From positions 1-43,699 of the forward strand of contig JAYEJU010000021.1 in the NCBI GenBank assembly GCA_034660655.1: a DNA stretch of 43,699 nt, given 5' to 3'. Shown here in pieces: positions 22,966-42,256 of this stretch. Under the pieces are notes generated by a model. The model searched no databases, was not told the origin of the DNA, and saw only the letters and a program-made list of their open reading frames with translations. Made by a program: the position numbers and the translations under genes. The number at the start of each line of letters is the position of its first letter. Within the stretch, counting starts at the first letter, position 1. This stretch comes from Patescibacteria group bacterium (GTDB lineage: Bacteria > Patescibacteriota > Patescibacteriia > JAACEG01).

Positions 22966-23170
22966 AATTTAATTGTATCATTAATTTTAATTAATTATAT
23001 CATTTTACAATAACAAATGCAACAATTAATTTTCGCAATCAATTTTCAAAATATTCAATATTTTTATTTTCCAATTATTCAAACATTGTATTAGTCCACC
23101 TCATTCTGGACAAAAAGTTATTTTTAATTTGTTTATATTTTTTAATGAAGTTTAAAACATCTTGAAACTG

Positions 23171-23199
23171 TTGGCAAAATATTTTTTTTGTATTATCAT
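23171..23199 (+). promoter_or_regulatory. possible promoter of the first glycogen synthase operon
   Basis: TTGGCA (23171-23176), 17-nt spacer, TATCAT (23194-23199). The start would fall almost at the ATG (23207), implying a very short leader. Confidence 0.4.
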
Positions 23200-23206
23200 T
23201 ATTGAT

Positions 23207-24691
23207 ATGAATAATCTTCCAAATAAGTCTAAAAAATTTAATATCGCGCATATAACTTCGCAAATTGCGCCTTTTTCAAAAACAGGAGGAATGGCTGATG
23301 TTGTAAACGCGCTTTCTAAAAAGCAATCTTATTTTAAACATAATGTAATGATATTCAGCCCCTATTATGGTTTTATTAGAAAAAAAGATTTTGAAAGAGA
23401 GACAATCGCTAAAAATTTGCAGGCTAGACTAGGAGAAAAAAAATATAGTTTTGCTGTTAAAAAGGTAAAAATTTTTGATAATGCCAATATTTATTTTATT
23501 TGCAATGATAAAATGTTTGGAACTCATAAGATTTACGGAACTGATTTTGACGGTTTGCGTTTTTATTTTTTTGAACTGGCTGTTTTGCAATTTTTGCGGC
23601 ATAAAAAAATGGCTCCTCATATTATTCATTGCCATGATTGGCATGCTGGATTAATTCCTAATTTGATTAGAAAATCAAAATTTTTTGCCAAAACAGCCAC
23701 GGTTTTTACAATTCATAATTTGGTTTTTCAAGGGGCTAAAAATTGGTGGGAAACGCCGACGAAAAAGAAAGACAGTGGCAGGGGGGCAATAACAACCGAT
23801 AAAAAAAAGATAGAATATTTGAATTTTACCAAAAGGGGAATTTTATATTCTGATGTTATTAATACTGTTTCTGAACGCCACGCGAAAGAAATATTAACTT
23901 CTAAATACGGGCAAGGATTGGAAAAATTATTAAAAAAGCGGAAAGACGATGTTTATGGAATTATTAACGGCATTGATTATAAAGTGCATAATCCTAAAAT
24001 TGACAAATATATTTATCGCAAATATGATTGGGATACGCTACGGCATAAAAAGATTAATAAATTAGCTTTGCAAAAAGAATTAAAATTAAAAGAATCAGAA
24101 GAAATACCTTTAATCGGTTTTTCAAATCGTTTAAGCGAACAAAAAGGAATTATTTTATTGCAAAAAGTAATGGATACTTTATTAAAGTTAGATTTGCAGT
24201 TTGTTATTGTGGGAGATCGTGGTGGGACAAAAGAGTATATTAATTTTTTTAAAAAAGTCGCGAGAAAACATCATGATAAGTTGGCAATTTATTTAAAAAG
24301 CCGTTTTCCAGAATATATGGAAAGCAAGATGTTTGCGGCAAGCGATATGTTTTTAATGCCTTCGCGTTTTGAACCATGCGGAATTTCGCAAATGAAAAGT
24401 TTGCGATATGGCAGTATTCCAATAGTGCATAAAACTGGCGGGCTTTCTGATACGATTGAAAATTTTAATCCCAGAACGAGGCATGGAAATGGATTTGTTT
24501 TTGATTTTTATAATGAGCAGGAATTTTTATCAGCCATTATAAGAGCTTTGGAAAATTATAAATATCCGAGCTGTTGGGAATATTTGACATGGAGGAGCAT
24601 GAAATTGTCTTTTTCATGGGAATTGCCAGCTAAAAAATATTTGCAACTTTATAAAATAGCAATTAAAAAAAGAAATGATAAAGATTTTTAA
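23207..24691 (+). CDS. glgA: glycogen/starch synthase, GT5 family (first copy)
   Basis: 494 residues from ATG 23207; a TTG-started extension from 23162 covers the promoter region and is not used. GT5 marks: IAPFSKTGGMADVVNAL (KTGG 25-28, sugar-nucleotide binding), IHCHDWHAGLIPNL, FTIHNLVFQG, NGIDYKVHNP, SRFEPCGISQM (the Glu-Pro-Cys-Gly catalytic region) and KTGGLSDTIENF. It adds glucose from ADP- or UDP-glucose to an alpha-1,4-glucan. The donor is unclear because no glgC is in the window. First gene of an operon with GH57 and two kinase-fold genes. Confidence 0.88.
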   Translation: MNNLPNKSKKFNIAHITSQIAPFSKTGGMADVVNALSKKQSYFKHNVMIFSPYYGFIRKKDFERETIAKNLQARLGEKKYSFAVKKVKIFDNANIYFICNDKMFGTHKIYGTDFDGLRFYFFELAVLQFLRHKKMAPHIIHCHDWHAGLIPNLIRKSKFFAKTATVFTIHNLVFQGAKNWWETPTKKKDSGRGAITTDKKKIEYLNFTKRGILYSDVINTVSERHAKEILTSKYGQGLEKLLKKRKDDVYGIINGIDYKVHNPKIDKYIYRKYDWDTLRHKKINKLALQKELKLKESEEIPLIGFSNRLSEQKGIILLQKVMDTLLKLDLQFVIVGDRGGTKEYINFFKKVARKHHDKLAIYLKSRFPEYMESKMFAASDMFLMPSRFEPCGISQMKSLRYGSIPIVHKTGGLSDTIENFNPRTRHGNGFVFDFYNEQEFLSAIIRALENYKYPSCWEYLTWRSMKLSFSWELPAKKYLQLYKIAIKKRNDKDF

Positions 24692-32844: not shown

Positions 32845-34266
32845 ATGAAAATTTTAATGTTATCTTCGGAGCTTGCTCCGTTCGCAAAAGTTGGCGGATT
32901 GGCTGATGTTATGGGTTCTTTGCCAAAAGCCATAAAAAAACAAGGAGCTGATGTCAGGTTGGCATTGCCATTATATGGAAATATCAACATTAAAAAGCAA
33001 AAATTAAAAAGAGTTTTATCAAATATTAAAGTTGCAGGATGTAATGTGAATATTTGGCAGGGCAAAATTCCAAATTCAAAAGTAATAGTTTATTTTGTAG
33101 AATGCAAAAAATATTTTTGCAAAAAACAAGTTTATTGTGATAATAATCAAGAAAGGTTTTTATTTTTTTCTATTTCTATTTTGCAAATTTTGTTTTTAAT
33201 AAATTTTAAACCAGATATCATTCATTGTAATGATTATCACACAGCTTTAATCCCAAGTTTATTAAAAAATTTAGACAATAATTTTTTAAAAGAAACAAAA
33301 ACAATTTTAACAATTCATAATTTACAATTTCAAGGTAAAACAAAAATAAAAAATTTTTCCAACCAATATTTAAAAAAATATTTAGAACAAATTTTTAGCA
33401 AAGAAAAATCAGAAAATATTAATTTTATGGTTAATGGAATTTTAAATTCCAATGCAATTAGCACTGTGAGCAAAACTTACGCAAAAGAAATAACAACAAA
33501 AAAGTTTGGAGAAGGAATAGAAAATATTATAAAAAGCAAGAAAAAAAATTTGTATGGAGTTGTTAACGGAATAGATGTTGATTTTTTTAATCCGCAAACT
33601 GATAAATATATTAAACAAAAATATTCTATTAAAACATTAAATAAAAAAACAGAAAATAAAGTTTATTTGCAAAAAATATTGGGCTTGCCTATTGATAAAA
33701 ACAAAGCAATTGTTGGATTGGTTTCGCGTTTAGTTTGGCAAAAAGGCATTGAGCTATTTTCAGAAAAATTCGCTAGATTAAATTGCCAGTTTGTTTTTTT
33801 AGGAACAGGCGAAAAAAAATATGAAGATCATTTAAAAAAAATAGCAAGAAAATATTCAGATAAAATTTCAGTAAATATAATGTTTGACATTAAATTGGCA
33901 AATCAAATTTATGCTGGATCTGATATTTTTTTAATGCCTTCACGTTTTGAACCGTGCGGTTTGGGGCAACTAATTGCTATGAGATATGGAGCAGTTCCTG
34001 TGGCACGCGCGACTGGCGGATTAAAAGACACAATAGAAAATTTTAATTTTAAAAAAGCTATTGTGAAAAATAAAAAAGCAACAGGATTTGTTTTTAATAA
34101 ATTTAGTTTAATCGCTTTTTATAGAAAATTAAATAATGCGATAAATTTGTATTATAATGACAAAAAAAGCTGGAAAAAAATTCAGTTAAATGGAATAAAA
34201 AGTGATTTTTCATGGGATAATTCCGCTAAACAATATTTAGATTTATATAAAAAATTAATTAAATAA
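32845..34266 (+). CDS. glgA: glycogen/starch synthase, GT5 family (second copy)
   Basis: 473 residues, standard length. SSELAPFAKVGGLADV (7-22, KVGG 15-18), IIHCNDYHTALIPSL, LTIHNLQFQGKT, NGIDVDFFNPQTDKY, SRLVWQKGIELF, SRFEPCGLGQL and ATGGLKDTIENF are canonical GT5 motifs. It is closer to typical GlgA than the copy at 23207 (usual EPCGLGQ, and VGG rather than TGG in the first loop), so the two may differ in donor or acceptor. The GalT-family gene follows after 9 nt. Confidence 0.92.
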   Translation: MKILMLSSELAPFAKVGGLADVMGSLPKAIKKQGADVRLALPLYGNINIKKQKLKRVLSNIKVAGCNVNIWQGKIPNSKVIVYFVECKKYFCKKQVYCDNNQERFLFFSISILQILFLINFKPDIIHCNDYHTALIPSLLKNLDNNFLKETKTILTIHNLQFQGKTKIKNFSNQYLKKYLEQIFSKEKSENINFMVNGILNSNAISTVSKTYAKEITTKKFGEGIENIIKSKKKNLYGVVNGIDVDFFNPQTDKYIKQKYSIKTLNKKTENKVYLQKILGLPIDKNKAIVGLVSRLVWQKGIELFSEKFARLNCQFVFLGTGEKKYEDHLKKIARKYSDKISVNIMFDIKLANQIYAGSDIFLMPSRFEPCGLGQLIAMRYGAVPVARATGGLKDTIENFNFKKAIVKNKKATGFVFNKFSLIAFYRKLNNAINLYYNDKKSWKKIQLNGIKSDFSWDNSAKQYLDLYKKLIK

Positions 34267-36255: not shown

Positions 36256-37443
36256 ATGGGTTTATTTAGTTCGGATTACAGTTACTTGGGGATTAATCTT
36301 GGGACTTCCAGTGTTAAGCTGGTTGAACTTGGGAATAATAACGGAGTCCCGCATTTGCTTACTTATGGTTTTACAGAGCAGTCTATTGATATCATTAAAG
36401 ATGATTCTGAGTCGGCGAAGCAAGAAATTGTAAGAATTTTAAATCAATTATGCAAAGAAGCAAAAGTAAGTAGCAATAAGGTTGTTACGGCTTTGCCTAC
36501 TTTTTCTGTTTTTTCTTCTGTTATTAGCATGCCAAAAATGAGTAAAAAAGATTTATCTTCCGCCGTGCTTTGGGAAGCAAAAAAAATTATCCCAATGCCA
36601 TTTGAAGATATTATTTTGGATTGGTATATTCTTAATGAGGATTCAAGCTCGCAAAAGTCTAAATTTAGAAATCTTTTTAATAAAATTAAAAAAGAAAAGC
36701 CGAAAGCAAAAGAAGGAAATATTGATGAAAAAAATACCAAAAATTCTTTGTTAAATAGTAATCAAGGTGAAAATAAAGGTGATGAAGATATCAAAGTTCT
36801 TTTAACAGGAGCGCCTAAAAATTTAGTTACAAAATATATTGATATTTTTCAGAGAGCCGACCTTAATTTATTAAGTTTAGAAACTGAAATTTTTGCTTTA
36901 GTCAGGGCATTGGTTGGAAACGATAAATCAACTTTAATTATTGTTGATATTGGAGCAATGTCAACTAATATTTCTTTAGTAAAAAATGGATCAGTAGTTA
37001 TAAACAGAAGTATTGAGTTAGGGGGAAAAAATGTTACTAGTGAAATTAGCCAAAATTTGAATGTCGCGTTTAAAAGGGCCGAACAGTTTAAATTTGACAT
37101 AGGGATTAATGCCGAAGGACAAGCAGACAGTTCAATTTTTAAGTCAATAGAAAATACAATAAGTCCAATTGTGGATGAAATAAAATATACAATCGATTTT
37201 TTTAAAAATCAGTTAAATTTCGGCCAGTCAGAAAGCGATGTTGTAGAAAAAATAATTTTAACAGGCGGGTCATCATCACTTTCTTATTTGTCTGAATATT
37301 TAGCTAAACAGCTGAATAAAAAAGTTTATATTGGAGATCCTATGGCAAGAATAGTTTATCCAGAGGATTTAAAGCCTATTATTGACGATGTTGGATCTAA
37401 ACTGTCAGTTGCGGTAGGTTTGGCAATGAGGGAGATAGAATAA
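36256..37443 (+). CDS. pilM: PilM, actin-like type IV pilus assembly protein
   Basis: 395 residues. YLGINLGTSSVKLVEL (phosphate-1 loop), IIVDIGAMSTNISLV (about 231-245, phosphate-2) and IILTGGSSSLSYLSEYLAKQ (about 335-354, adenosine motif) define the FtsA/PilM actin-like fold. PilM is cytoplasmic and binds the INLLP N-terminus of PilN, which is present in the next gene. A charged, low-complexity insert (about 136-180) interrupts the usual fold. First gene of the pilus operon. Confidence 0.9.
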   Translation: MGLFSSDYSYLGINLGTSSVKLVELGNNNGVPHLLTYGFTEQSIDIIKDDSESAKQEIVRILNQLCKEAKVSSNKVVTALPTFSVFSSVISMPKMSKKDLSSAVLWEAKKIIPMPFEDIILDWYILNEDSSSQKSKFRNLFNKIKKEKPKAKEGNIDEKNTKNSLLNSNQGENKGDEDIKVLLTGAPKNLVTKYIDIFQRADLNLLSLETEIFALVRALVGNDKSTLIIVDIGAMSTNISLVKNGSVVINRSIELGGKNVTSEISQNLNVAFKRAEQFKFDIGINAEGQADSSIFKSIENTISPIVDEIKYTIDFFKNQLNFGQSESDVVEKIILTGGSSSLSYLSEYLAKQLNKKVYIGDPMARIVYPEDLKPIIDDVGSKLSVAVGLAMREIE

Positions 37444-37454
37444 AAGCCAAAATA

Positions 37455-37630
37455 CTCAAATATTCAAACATTTTAACACTTTAACATTTAGACATTTAAA
37501 CACACTAACATTTTAAGATAATTTTCAATTTCCAAATTATTTTGTTATTTATTATTTGAAAATTGATAATTGAAAATTGAGTCATTGAGCATTCATTGAA
37601 AATTAAAAATTAGAAATTGAAAATTAAAAT
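37455..37630. repeat. low-complexity A/T repeat spacer between pilM and pilN
   Basis: The 190-nt spacer holds ACATTTTAACACTTTAACATTT-type blocks, the inverted version of those at 35212-35262, then many copies of ATTGAAAATT and AATTTTCAATT in both orientations. No ORF. Such spacers inside an otherwise tight operon suggest expansion by repeat slippage. Confidence 0.5.
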
Positions 37631-37633
37631 ATT

Positions 37634-39052
37634 ATGCCGATAAATTTATTGCCTAAAAAGTTTAAAGAAAAAGAAAAAAAAGAGATACGTAAAAAAGAGA
37701 AATTGGTTAAAAGCGTTGAAATGCGCGTTCCAAGCAAATCAGGAGAGGATGAGAATAAAAAAAATGAGAGAAATTTTTTTTCTAATTTTTTTTATTCTCT
37801 TTTTTTTAGAAAGGAAAAAGCAAGTAATAAGATTGATAATAGGGGAAAAGAGAAATTTTTAGAAGAAAAAAAAAGAAAAGAAATAACTAATTTTTTGAAA
37901 CATAAAAAAGAAATTGGGATAGATGACAAAGAAGCCAAAACAAAAATGCGTGAGACAAAATCAGGAGCTGGTAATAAAAAAACTTTGACAGATAAAAAAA
38001 CAAGAAGTTCTAATATCAAAAAGAAGTCTTTTTGGCAATGGTTTTTAGGAAATAAGCCAGCAATAGATTCTCAAAAAAGCAGAACATTGTCTGACGATTT
38101 TGATAAAGATGGAAAAGAATATAACATGAAAAATATTAAAAAATCATCAGAAGAAAAGTCGTTTTGGCAGAAAGGAAAAATCAAAGAAGAAAAAGATTTT
38201 TTAAACAAGCATAATAAAACAACGCAAGAGCCAGGCAATAAAGAAGAAAAAAAACAGGAAAAAAAGAAAAATATTTATAAAAAAGATTCTTTTTGGCAGA
38301 GATTATTTCGTAAAATAGGCAAGGATAAGGGAAAAAACAATTCTGCATCGCGTAAATCGCAAAAAACAAAAGAAAATAAAGGTAATAAGGCAAATAAAAG
38401 AAAAAAAAATGCAGGCAATCCAGATAAAAATAAAAAGAGAAATAGATTTAAAAAATTTTTTTACAAAAAAGCTGAGATAAATTTTATTGACGGAGAATTA
38501 ATTGGCTCAGTCAGGTTGAAAATTAAAGAAAGAGCATTGTCAATTATTTTTGTTTTATTTTTTTCTTTGATTATTATCTCTTCCGTGTATATGTTAGTGA
38601 ATTGGTATCAGCTTACCGTTATTGAAAGATCACGCAGTGTTGAAAAAAAATTGCAAGACTTAAAAAATAATATAGATGTTTTTGAAGTAAAAAAACAAGA
38701 AGCTTTAAAATTTCAAGAAAAATTAAAAGCAGTTGATTATTTGTTGAGCCAGCATATTTGTTGGACTGATTTTTTAAATGGTATTGAAAGAATCACATTA
38801 AGAGATGTTTATTATGAAAGCGCTATTGTTGATTTTGAAGGCAACATTTTTCTTTCAGCCGAAACAGATAGTTTTGAAACAGTTGCTGAACAATTATTGG
38901 TTTTTCAAGATAATAAAGATTTGATTGAATCAGTAAAAATAGATTCAGTTGATTCAGAAAATATCGGTGACAGCGATAATGAGATTCAAATAATAAAGTT
39001 TAATATAACATTAAAAATAAATAAAGAAAATTTTTTAAATATAGGCAAATAA
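37634..39052 (+). CDS. pilN: PilN-like protein with a long lysine-rich cytoplasmic tether
   Basis: 472 residues against about 200 for usual PilN. The N-terminus MPINLLPKKF carries the INLLP PilM-binding motif. Residues about 10-280 are extremely Lys/Glu/Asn-rich and disordered-looking, with short aromatic motifs NFFSNFFYSLFFRK (47-60), SFWQ (132-135, 176-179 and 219-222) and RFKKFFYKK (271-279). One membrane helix (about 302-325) is followed by a coiled coil (about 333-365) and a PilN ferredoxin-like exported domain. Normally the INLLP motif is within about 20 residues of the helix; here it is about 290 away. PilO follows after 16 nt. Confidence 0.82.
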   Translation: MPINLLPKKFKEKEKKEIRKKEKLVKSVEMRVPSKSGEDENKKNERNFFSNFFYSLFFRKEKASNKIDNRGKEKFLEEKKRKEITNFLKHKKEIGIDDKEAKTKMRETKSGAGNKKTLTDKKTRSSNIKKKSFWQWFLGNKPAIDSQKSRTLSDDFDKDGKEYNMKNIKKSSEEKSFWQKGKIKEEKDFLNKHNKTTQEPGNKEEKKQEKKKNIYKKDSFWQRLFRKIGKDKGKNNSASRKSQKTKENKGNKANKRKKNAGNPDKNKKRNRFKKFFYKKAEINFIDGELIGSVRLKIKERALSIIFVLFFSLIIISSVYMLVNWYQLTVIERSRSVEKKLQDLKNNIDVFEVKKQEALKFQEKLKAVDYLLSQHICWTDFLNGIERITLRDVYYESAIVDFEGNIFLSAETDSFETVAEQLLVFQDNKDLIESVKIDSVDSENIGDSDNEIQIIKFNITLKINKENFLNIGK

Positions 39053-39068
39053 TATTGATTTAATTTTT

Positions 39069-39698
39069 ATGCTTTTAGAAGATTCTAACGTAAGAGACAA
39101 ATTATTAAAAAATTTTATTAAATATTTCAATTATTTTTTATTATTGTTAATTGTTATTTTTTTCTTAAGCTGTTATTTCATTCTGCTTAAGCCAAAACAG
39201 GATAAAATAAGTGAAATTGAAAATGTTGAAATTTTTCAAGGAACAAAAATTTACGATGAAAACACGGAATATTTTAAAAAAGTTAAAAGTTTTGTGAAAA
39301 AATATGATAGTATAAGCGATGAAGATAAAAAAAGAATTGATTTGATGTTGCCTGACAAACTAGATTATCCGCAATTATTTGCCCAGCTTGAAAGTTTGAT
39401 AGAAAGCAATGGATTTAAATTAAATAGAATTACATTGTCGCGTTTAAGCGGTCAAAGTAATCAAGCGGATAAAGACAGGAAAGAAGTTTTTGATTTTATA
39501 AAAAAAGTTAATATAAGCATTACTATTGATGGCGTGGATAGTTTTTCAGATTATAAAAGGATGTTGGATATGTTTTATAGCAATCTTTTATTAATGGATA
39601 TTACATCAATCAATTATTCAGATTCAATGAGCGGTTCTTATTCTGTTGATATAATAACTTATTTTTTAGAAACAGAAAATTCAGACAATAAAAATTAG
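39069..39698 (+). CDS. pilO: PilO-like type IV pilus inner-membrane protein
   Basis: 209 residues: one membrane helix (about 20-43), a coiled coil (about 48-80), and a small alpha/beta exported domain (about 95-200, LDYPQLFAQLESLIESNGFK ... SFSDYKRMLDMFYSNLLLMD) with the pattern of PilO. It should pair with PilN in the membrane alignment complex. Sequence similarity across PilO proteins is low, so the name rests on topology and position between pilN and pilB. Confidence 0.75.
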   Translation: MLLEDSNVRDKLLKNFIKYFNYFLLLLIVIFFLSCYFILLKPKQDKISEIENVEIFQGTKIYDENTEYFKKVKSFVKKYDSISDEDKKRIDLMLPDKLDYPQLFAQLESLIESNGFKLNRITLSRLSGQSNQADKDRKEVFDFIKKVNISITIDGVDSFSDYKRMLDMFYSNLLLMDITSINYSDSMSGSYSVDIITYFLETENSDNKN

Positions 39699-39718: not shown

Positions 39719-40054
39719 ATGTCTAATTATATTGGAAAAAAAAGGATTGTATTTTCAACAATTGTTTTTCTAACAATGGTTTTGGCTATTATTGTTTCTG
39801 CTTTTTATTATACTCAGCTTAAAAAAAGATTTATTGACCCAACAGGCGATGTTTTTAAAAAAATTTTATTTAAGCAGGTGGATTTTGATTTGGAATTTAA
39901 TGAAAAAATTTTATTAGATTCTGTGTTTTTGAAGTTAAATGATAATCATATTTATTTTGTTAAAGAAGAAGCGGGCAACGGCAACGCTTTTGAAAATCCA
40001 AGAAATATTTCAGATGAGAAATTAGAGGAGGGCAATTTGGAAACTACTTATTAA
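39719..40054 (+). CDS. small single-helix membrane protein in the pilus operon
   Basis: 111 residues with one N-terminal membrane helix (about 9-31) and an exported, acidic tail containing VDFDLEFNEKILLDSVFLKL. It occupies the place of PilP in the classical pilMNOP order but lacks a lipobox and a recognisable PilP domain. A role in the alignment complex is plausible from position only. Confidence 0.6.
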   Translation: MSNYIGKKRIVFSTIVFLTMVLAIIVSAFYYTQLKKRFIDPTGDVFKKILFKQVDFDLEFNEKILLDSVFLKLNDNHIYFVKEEAGNGNAFENPRNISDEKLEEGNLETTY

Positions 40055-41857: not shown

Positions 41858-42256
41858 ATGGCTTTTAAAAAACAAATAAAAATTTTGATTATTGAAGACG
41901 ATAGTTTTTTAAGTGATTTTTATGGCAAAAAATTATCAGATAAAAATTATGAAGTGTTTATAGCTTCTGACGGCGAAAAAGGAGTTAAAATAGCTAAAGA
42001 AAAAAAACCAGATTTGATTTTATTAGATTTGGTTTTGCCAAAAATGAGCGGTTTTGATGTTGTAAAAGAATTAAAATCAGGAGATTGTAAAAATATACCA
42101 ATTGTCCTGCTTACTAATTTAAACGAAAAAGAAAATATAGATAAAGCATTAGATATGGGAGTTGAAGATTATCTGATAAAAGTTTATTTTACGCCTTCGG
42201 AAATAGTTGAAAAAATAAAAAATATTTTGTCTAAACGATATAAATTTAACACATAA
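41858..42256 (+). CDS. stand-alone CheY-like response regulator
   Basis: 132 residues, receiver domain only. ILIIEDDSFLSDFY (about 8-21, acidic pocket), PDLILLDLVLPKMSGFDVV (about 50-68; phospho-acceptor Asp in LLD) and DYLIKVYFTPSEIV (conserved Lys) are present. No output domain. It sits between pilB and pilC and probably controls the pilus motor by protein contact, as PilG/PilH-type receivers do elsewhere. No histidine kinase is in the window. Confidence 0.9.
   Translation: MAFKKQIKILIIEDDSFLSDFYGKKLSDKNYEVFIASDGEKGVKIAKEKKPDLILLDLVLPKMSGFDVVKELKSGDCKNIPIVLLTNLNEKENIDKALDMGVEDYLIKVYFTPSEIVEKIKNILSKRYKFNT

Follow-up and report, generated by a model that had tools for sequence, protein, structure and literature searches.

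A Long, Two-Box PilN with Predicted Membrane-Anchor-Like Segments in One Class of Patescibacteria

Introduction

The locus described here raises the question of what the type IV pilus protein PilN would do with a cytoplasmic extension of ~280 residues. In the canonical system, as summarized in PMC7613929 (citing structure 2YCH), the PilN tail is about 30 aa long and binds the IA-IC cleft of PilM, a relative of FtsA. The window (the whole stretch of DNA that was analysed, 43,699 nucleotides) originates from an uncultured, ultrasmall bacterium of the Patescibacteria, a group in which type IV pili are widespread and have been linked to host contact (PMC6744442, PMC12206443). No description of such a PilN was found in the open-access literature.

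The pil Operon and the PilN Protein

PilN is encoded by an open reading frame of 472 aa with an ATG start (37634-39052, + strand), recognized in part by its operon context. It lies between pilM (36256-37443, + strand) and a PilO-like gene (39069-39698), in an operon with the order pilM, pilN, pilO-like, small ORF, pilB, receiver and pilC. PilM (TIGR01175 above cutoff, PF11104), PilB and PilC were assigned by Pfam and NCBIfam, and the pilM-pilN-pilO synteny with pilB and pilC is present. The PilO-like gene has no family match in Pfam or NCBIfam and is labelled by position and topology alone. The small ORF (39719-40054, 111 aa), located between the PilO-like gene and pilB, has one N-terminal membrane segment and no family match; judging from where it lies, it may be a PilP- or pilin-like accessory. 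The receiver (41858-42256) is a stand-alone response-regulator receiver domain with pilB on one side and pilC on the other. The gap between pilM and pilN (37444-37633) is AT-rich and contains imperfect repeats around ATTGAAAATTA, both direct and inverted, which is unusual as the operon is tight otherwise. Elsewhere in the 43-kb window, two glycogen/starch-synthase-like ORFs (23162-24691 and 32845-34266) were identified by eye.

The membrane-bound and periplasmic parts of the protein are those of a PilN. A single transmembrane helix at about residues 302-325 (38537-38608, + strand) starts at ~302-304 by hydropathy and lies within a predicted helix, 287-372. It is followed by a coiled coil and a periplasmic alpha-beta domain (residues 331-472; 38624-39049, + strand), predicted by AlphaFold with blocks mostly of 87-98 pLDDT. 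This domain has a GspL/PilO-like fold, and its best PDB matches are EpsL, XcpY and PulL. GspL of type II secretion resembles the present pair not only in this periplasmic fold but also in the functional pairing of PilM and PilN domains; there, however, one chain unites the PilM-like domain with the transmembrane helix, whereas here PilM is a separate protein that would be held on a long arm.

Among the closest known systems is the canonical type IVa PilN (T. thermophilus PilM-PilN 2YCH, P. aeruginosa 5eou and M. xanthus 3jc8). The N-terminal INLLP box, the single transmembrane helix, the GspL/PilO-like periplasmic domain and the pilM-pilN-pilO gene order are common to both. The difference resides in the tail: the canonical one has a single box in about 30 aa, whereas that of the window PilN extends over about 280 aa and contains aromatic-basic segments in addition to two box positions. 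No Pfam or NCBIfam PilN model matches the window protein at E 0.1. A profile of the C-terminal part of the PilNs of the bacterium's own class, which begins at the juxtamembrane box described below (J-box), has M. xanthus PilN as its best PDB match (3jc8, E 2.3e-5), the alignment starting from 3jc8 residue 6. Since the class profile reaches this PilN, the missing family-model matches are read as divergence and not as non-membership.

Boxes and Motifs of the Tether

All elements of the tether are given on the + strand. The N-box INLLP (residues 3-7; 37640-37654), a putative PilM-binding box situated, as in other PilNs, in the cytoplasmic N-terminus, is followed by a predicted helix (8-24) and by a strand-like element, VEMRVP (residues 28-33; 37706-37735), found at the same place in many PilNs of the class. 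The aromatic-basic segment NFFSNFFYSLFFRK (residues 47-60; 37772-37813) comes next, then three SFWQ motifs: SFWQ-1 (SFWQWFLGNK, residues 132-141; 38027-38056), SFWQ-2 (SFWQKGK, residues 176-182; 38159-38179) and SFWQ-3 (SFWQRLFRKI, residues 219-228; 38288-38317). FF dipeptides start at 48, 52, 57 and 275, the last one within a basic aromatic stretch, RFKKFFYKK (residues 271-279; 38444-38470). Directly behind it lies the J-box INFIDGEL (residues 282-289; 38477-38500), a degenerate second INLLP-type box for which the class consensus is VNLIPEEL.

A preliminary description of this DNA had listed INLLP at 3-7, the membrane helix near 302, the SFWQs at 132, 176 and 219 and the FF motifs at 47-60 and 271-279; ORF analysis and hydropathy confirmed all of these, as well as the basic, lysine-rich nature of the tether. 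The second box at the membrane had been missed. In 20,000 composition-preserving shuffles of the tether, a single SFWQ occurred 13 times, and two or three never. Three SFWQs in one tether are not due to chance.

SFWQ-2 misses the second hydrophobic pair that is present in SFWQ-1, SFWQ-3 and the FF motif, and is thus an incomplete copy. AlphaFold places short helices at 48-57, 133-137 and 220-227, which coincide with the three full motifs, and none at SFWQ-2; these helices are of low confidence (pLDDT of about 41-62 in their ten-residue blocks).

Residues 8-282 contain 76 K, 15 R, 27 E and 14 D, resulting in a net charge of +50. Such a charge would suit nucleic-acid binding by the tether, as might occur in DNA uptake. 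This explanation is nevertheless very improbable: the linkers of many class members are Pro-rich and not strongly basic, positive cytoplasmic sides are common in membrane proteins, and what is conserved is an aromatic element rather than basic charge alone.

Conservation in Close Relatives

A PilN of the same genus (L002) aligns with the window PilN over its full length at 57%. All three SFWQs are kept, and the SFWQ-2 region (residues 174-182) is identical at 9/9 positions. The stretch ahead of the J-box is weakly conserved (4/10). Identity reaches 39/59 (66%) within five motif stretches and 72/185 (39%) outside them (Fisher p 3e-4). pN/pS is lowest for the motifs (0.31), followed by the transmembrane and C-terminal part (0.42) and the remaining tether (0.69); deriving from a single sequence pair, these motif conservation figures serve as an indication and not as a rate estimate.

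In L003, a member of the same family from another genus, the tether is shorter, with 153 residues between the boxes, and has no SFWQ. An aromatic cluster, NVFSNFSFFSKKR, is present where the first FF motif sits in the window PilN. The J-box is degenerate throughout this family, its proline being gone (INFIDGEL in the window, IDFIDGEL in L002, INFISGDL in L003).

The nearest PilN relative is encoded on contig JAACEG010000006.1 (L149), titled Lysobacteraceae OTbin.42. The contig appears to be the same as contig C40 of a same-genus genome (G001), and its source is probably a mislabelled or mixed MAG from a hydrothermal sample (PMC7039863).

Distribution of the Long PilN

Profile matches were obtained in 209/286 genomes of the class and in 192/287 genomes of a phylum-wide sample. 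Among the matches listed, the PilN frames, measured stop to stop and therefore slightly longer than the proteins, have a median of 374 aa in the class versus 202 aa in other classes; frames of at least 290 aa account for 124/150 in the class and for 1/143 in the other classes of the phylum. Even in the class the long PilN is not universal, as 26/150 listed matches have short frames.

Most of the sampled class PilNs follow a common order. An N-terminal INLLPEELRxKE box is followed ~43 residues on by an aromatic-basic segment, then by a variable linker, which bears extra aromatic-basic copies in some families, and by the second box (VNLIPEEL) 20 residues ahead of the membrane, the canonical PilN position. 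In a set of loci taken non-randomly, from better-scoring matches with a view to family diversity, an automatic test found both boxes in 87/95 long class PilNs. Among the eight others, L093 has both boxes by eye, and L082, L087, L115 and L117 have, next to the membrane, a variant of the form [TM]NLI. The two boxes are conserved to a similar degree in the 87 proteins: I83 N83 L87 L87 P75 (percent) for the N-box, at a median of three residues past the Met, and V72 N80 L91 [ILVM] P77 for the J-box, whose median distance to the transmembrane helix is 20 residues. In 17 canonical PilNs from other classes, the distance from box to membrane helix also has a median of 20 residues. The shared distance indicates that the J-box occupies the canonical position and that the N-box has moved out on the arm.

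Outside this class, the PilNs of the phylum have the short tail only. A short tail is also found in a second PilN of the window's own genome (L215, 6841-7401, 186 aa), which has an LNLLP close to the membrane helix. It belongs to a second pilM-pilN-pilO set on contig C47 (L215, 5767-7974), preceded by prepilin-like ORFs. The genome appears to encode two separate alignment subcomplexes in operation, as has been reported for Saccharibacteria (PMC12206443). Together with the size distribution, the short PilN of the second set shows that the tether belongs to one pilus system in one class. Judged by sequence, the long two-box PilN is a variant characteristic of this class of Patescibacteria.

The Aromatic-Basic Segment across the Class

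The linkers between the boxes of 87 PilNs were analysed, 85-528 residues long with a median of 190. In 32 of them a strict pattern, [SPGTK][FWL][FWLMI]xx[LFIMW][FLMIW], gives a total of 40 matches, where 3.3 would be expected and none of 300 shuffles exceeded 9; kinship among the linkers inflates such counts, the shuffles controlling composition and not phylogeny. The segment can be summarized as S-F/W-F/W/L-S-R-L-F-x-R-K (pooled consensus K-x-S-[FW]-[FWL]-[SRK]-[RK]-L-F-[GS]-[RK]-K-K). At key positions, K+R amount to 38-55% versus a background of 20%, and D+E to 1-5% versus 12%.

The position of the segment is nearly fixed. A loose form of the motif starts 30-50 residues past the N-box in 43/54 motif-bearing linkers, compared with 7.8 +/- 2.5 under uniform placement (maximum 17 of 2000), and is not found in 33/87 linkers. 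A leave-one-out matrix detects the segment significantly at this place in 62/87 linkers and fails in 25/87. The strand-like element of the VEMRVP type occurs in 52/87 linkers versus 17.3 in shuffles (one regex; maximum 28). Downstream copies are enriched as well, with 19 strict matches past linker position 60 versus 2.4, and the copy number grows with linker length (Spearman 0.53).

These data bear on another explanation of the extension, namely a plain flexible spacer that lengthens the reach of PilM, with the aromatic clusters as by-products of a low-complexity Lys/Phe-rich sequence. The large range of linker lengths would agree with a spacer, and so would a composition that depends on the family, with much Lys in that of the window and much Pro in others. 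In number, placement and conservation, however, the motifs exceed composition shuffles many-fold, and the spacer is already disfavoured and appears improbable.

SFWQ itself is ruled out as the conserved unit. S[FW]WQ occurs 14 times, against 0.0 expected, in only 10/87 linkers. Its conservation, which had been proposed as a check, holds in L002 but does not extend to the class. Loss of the motifs from close homologues with a freely varying tether, the outcome that would have spoken against the proposal, did not occur, as the generalised motif recurs in most sampled families. The idea of multivalent binding by the tether is retained in part: it fits a basic, disordered tether whose aromatic motifs are conserved and repeated, with a unit other than SFWQ. 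By sequence comparison, the FF motif at 47-60 of the window PilN is the class-shared segment; SFWQ-1 and SFWQ-3 repeat it in full and SFWQ-2 in truncated form, and the SFWQ-type copies are additions made inside families.

Candidate Protein Partners

The segments might be short linear motifs that bind proteins. The first one would then form, with INLLP and the strand-like element, a module of about 60 residues that docks on PilM, and further copies would recruit additional PilM, PilB or other subunits. The near-fixed spacing of N-box, strand-like element and aromatic segment would fit a composite docking site, and sequence specificity is suggested by SFWQ and by the conserved Ser (44%) that precedes the aromatic pair. 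In Thermus, moreover, the PilB-type ATPase PilF is bound by PilM and not by PilN alone (PMC6325625), so that the known contact to this ATPase is carried by PilM. The basic, acid-poor flanks, the exchangeability of F, W, L, M and I and the spacing shared with the FtsA anchor make lipid binding likelier than a specific groove, and binding to proteins is held to be possible but doubtful.

A charged insert of PilM had been suggested as the partner region of the tether. This insert (residues 129-175) is predicted by AlphaFold to be disordered and varies freely in length and sequence across the class, which does not support such a role. The window PilM contains KSKFRNLFNKIKKEK in this insert, which resembles the aromatic-basic motif, but this is not general. 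In L062, L066, L090, L098, L104, L109 and L110, the PilM insert ends with an IFSKPQKN-like stretch (LKKIFSKPQKN), aromatic-basic itself, which may be a separate conserved motif.

Resemblance to FtsA and MinD Membrane Anchors

The membrane was one of the three partners suggested in the preliminary description. The tails of FtsA and MinD are published membrane-targeting helices (PMC6803595, PMC6158289). Because the NCBIfam MinD matches in class genomes are all below the cut-off, the comparison was made with FtsA. The FtsA tails of the class end in KKWFKSLMP-like sequences (also KKLFKSLIP), with the spacing phi-phi-x-x-phi-phi in 24/33 versus 3.1 in shuffled tails. The C-terminal anchor of E. coli MinD has the same spacing. 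The PilN segments show it too, with the basic, acid-poor flanks of the FtsA membrane-targeting sequence. The FtsA anchor forms the C-terminus of the actin-like protein itself, whereas the PilN segments, with putative lipid binding, are internal, repeated and located on the partner of an FtsA-like protein.

The matrix derived from PilN selects the FtsA tail as best window in 25/33 proteins, versus 2.1 expected by position alone. Column-permuted matrices still do so in 15.0/33 on average (maximum 28), indicating that composition accounts for part of the resemblance. The helical hydrophobic moment of the motif 11-mers does not rise above the level of shuffled versions of the same 11-mers (median fraction 0.30), so that the segments are classed as MTS-like only and not as MTS. 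Membrane anchoring is therefore taken as the leading explanation, but with the chances about evenly balanced. The MinD MTS is weak and functional solely at a valency of two or more (PMC6803595), and a like need for at least two copies would explain the repeated segments in PilN.

Proposed Role of the Long PilN

With membrane anchoring as the preferred reading, we regard it as about equally probable as not that the tail acts as a long disordered arm which binds PilM through a box at either end and, between the boxes, the membrane through amphipathic segments of the aromatic-basic type; the architecture is read from the sequences, the binding to PilM and to the membrane is what we infer from it. 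PilM, an FtsA-like protein in which no membrane anchor was noted, would bind the N-terminal INLLP box as in the canonical PilM-PilN pair. The aromatic-basic segments would lie as short helices along the anionic inner leaflet, in the manner of the FtsA and MinD membrane-targeting sequences, each being weak alone and cooperative where several are present. The long, multi-anchored arm would keep PilM flat on the membrane, providing it with a membrane anchor in trans.

Most families have an intact juxtamembrane box, and in these a single PilN could hold two PilMs at once. For the window's family, whose juxtamembrane box is degenerate, PilM binding has probably passed to the N-terminal box. A further and more tentative proposal is a scaffold made of two-box, multi-anchor PilNs, in which the boxes bridge two PilMs and the segments give in trans the anchor that FtsA has in cis, creating a membrane-apposed layer of PilM in a secretin-less pilus machine.

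A further parallel is FtsN, a bitopic membrane protein like PilN, which contacts the IA-IC cleft of the actin-like FtsA through its cytoplasmic N-terminus (PMC7613929). Unlike that of the window PilN, its tail is short (about 32 aa in E. coli) and has no aromatic repeat. The two-box arm with its anchor-like segments offers a testable answer, for one class, to the question of how a secretin-less pilus machine is held together. If true, it would tie the PilM-PilN pair closer to FtsA-FtsN and would imply that an actin-like protein can borrow the membrane anchor of its partner.
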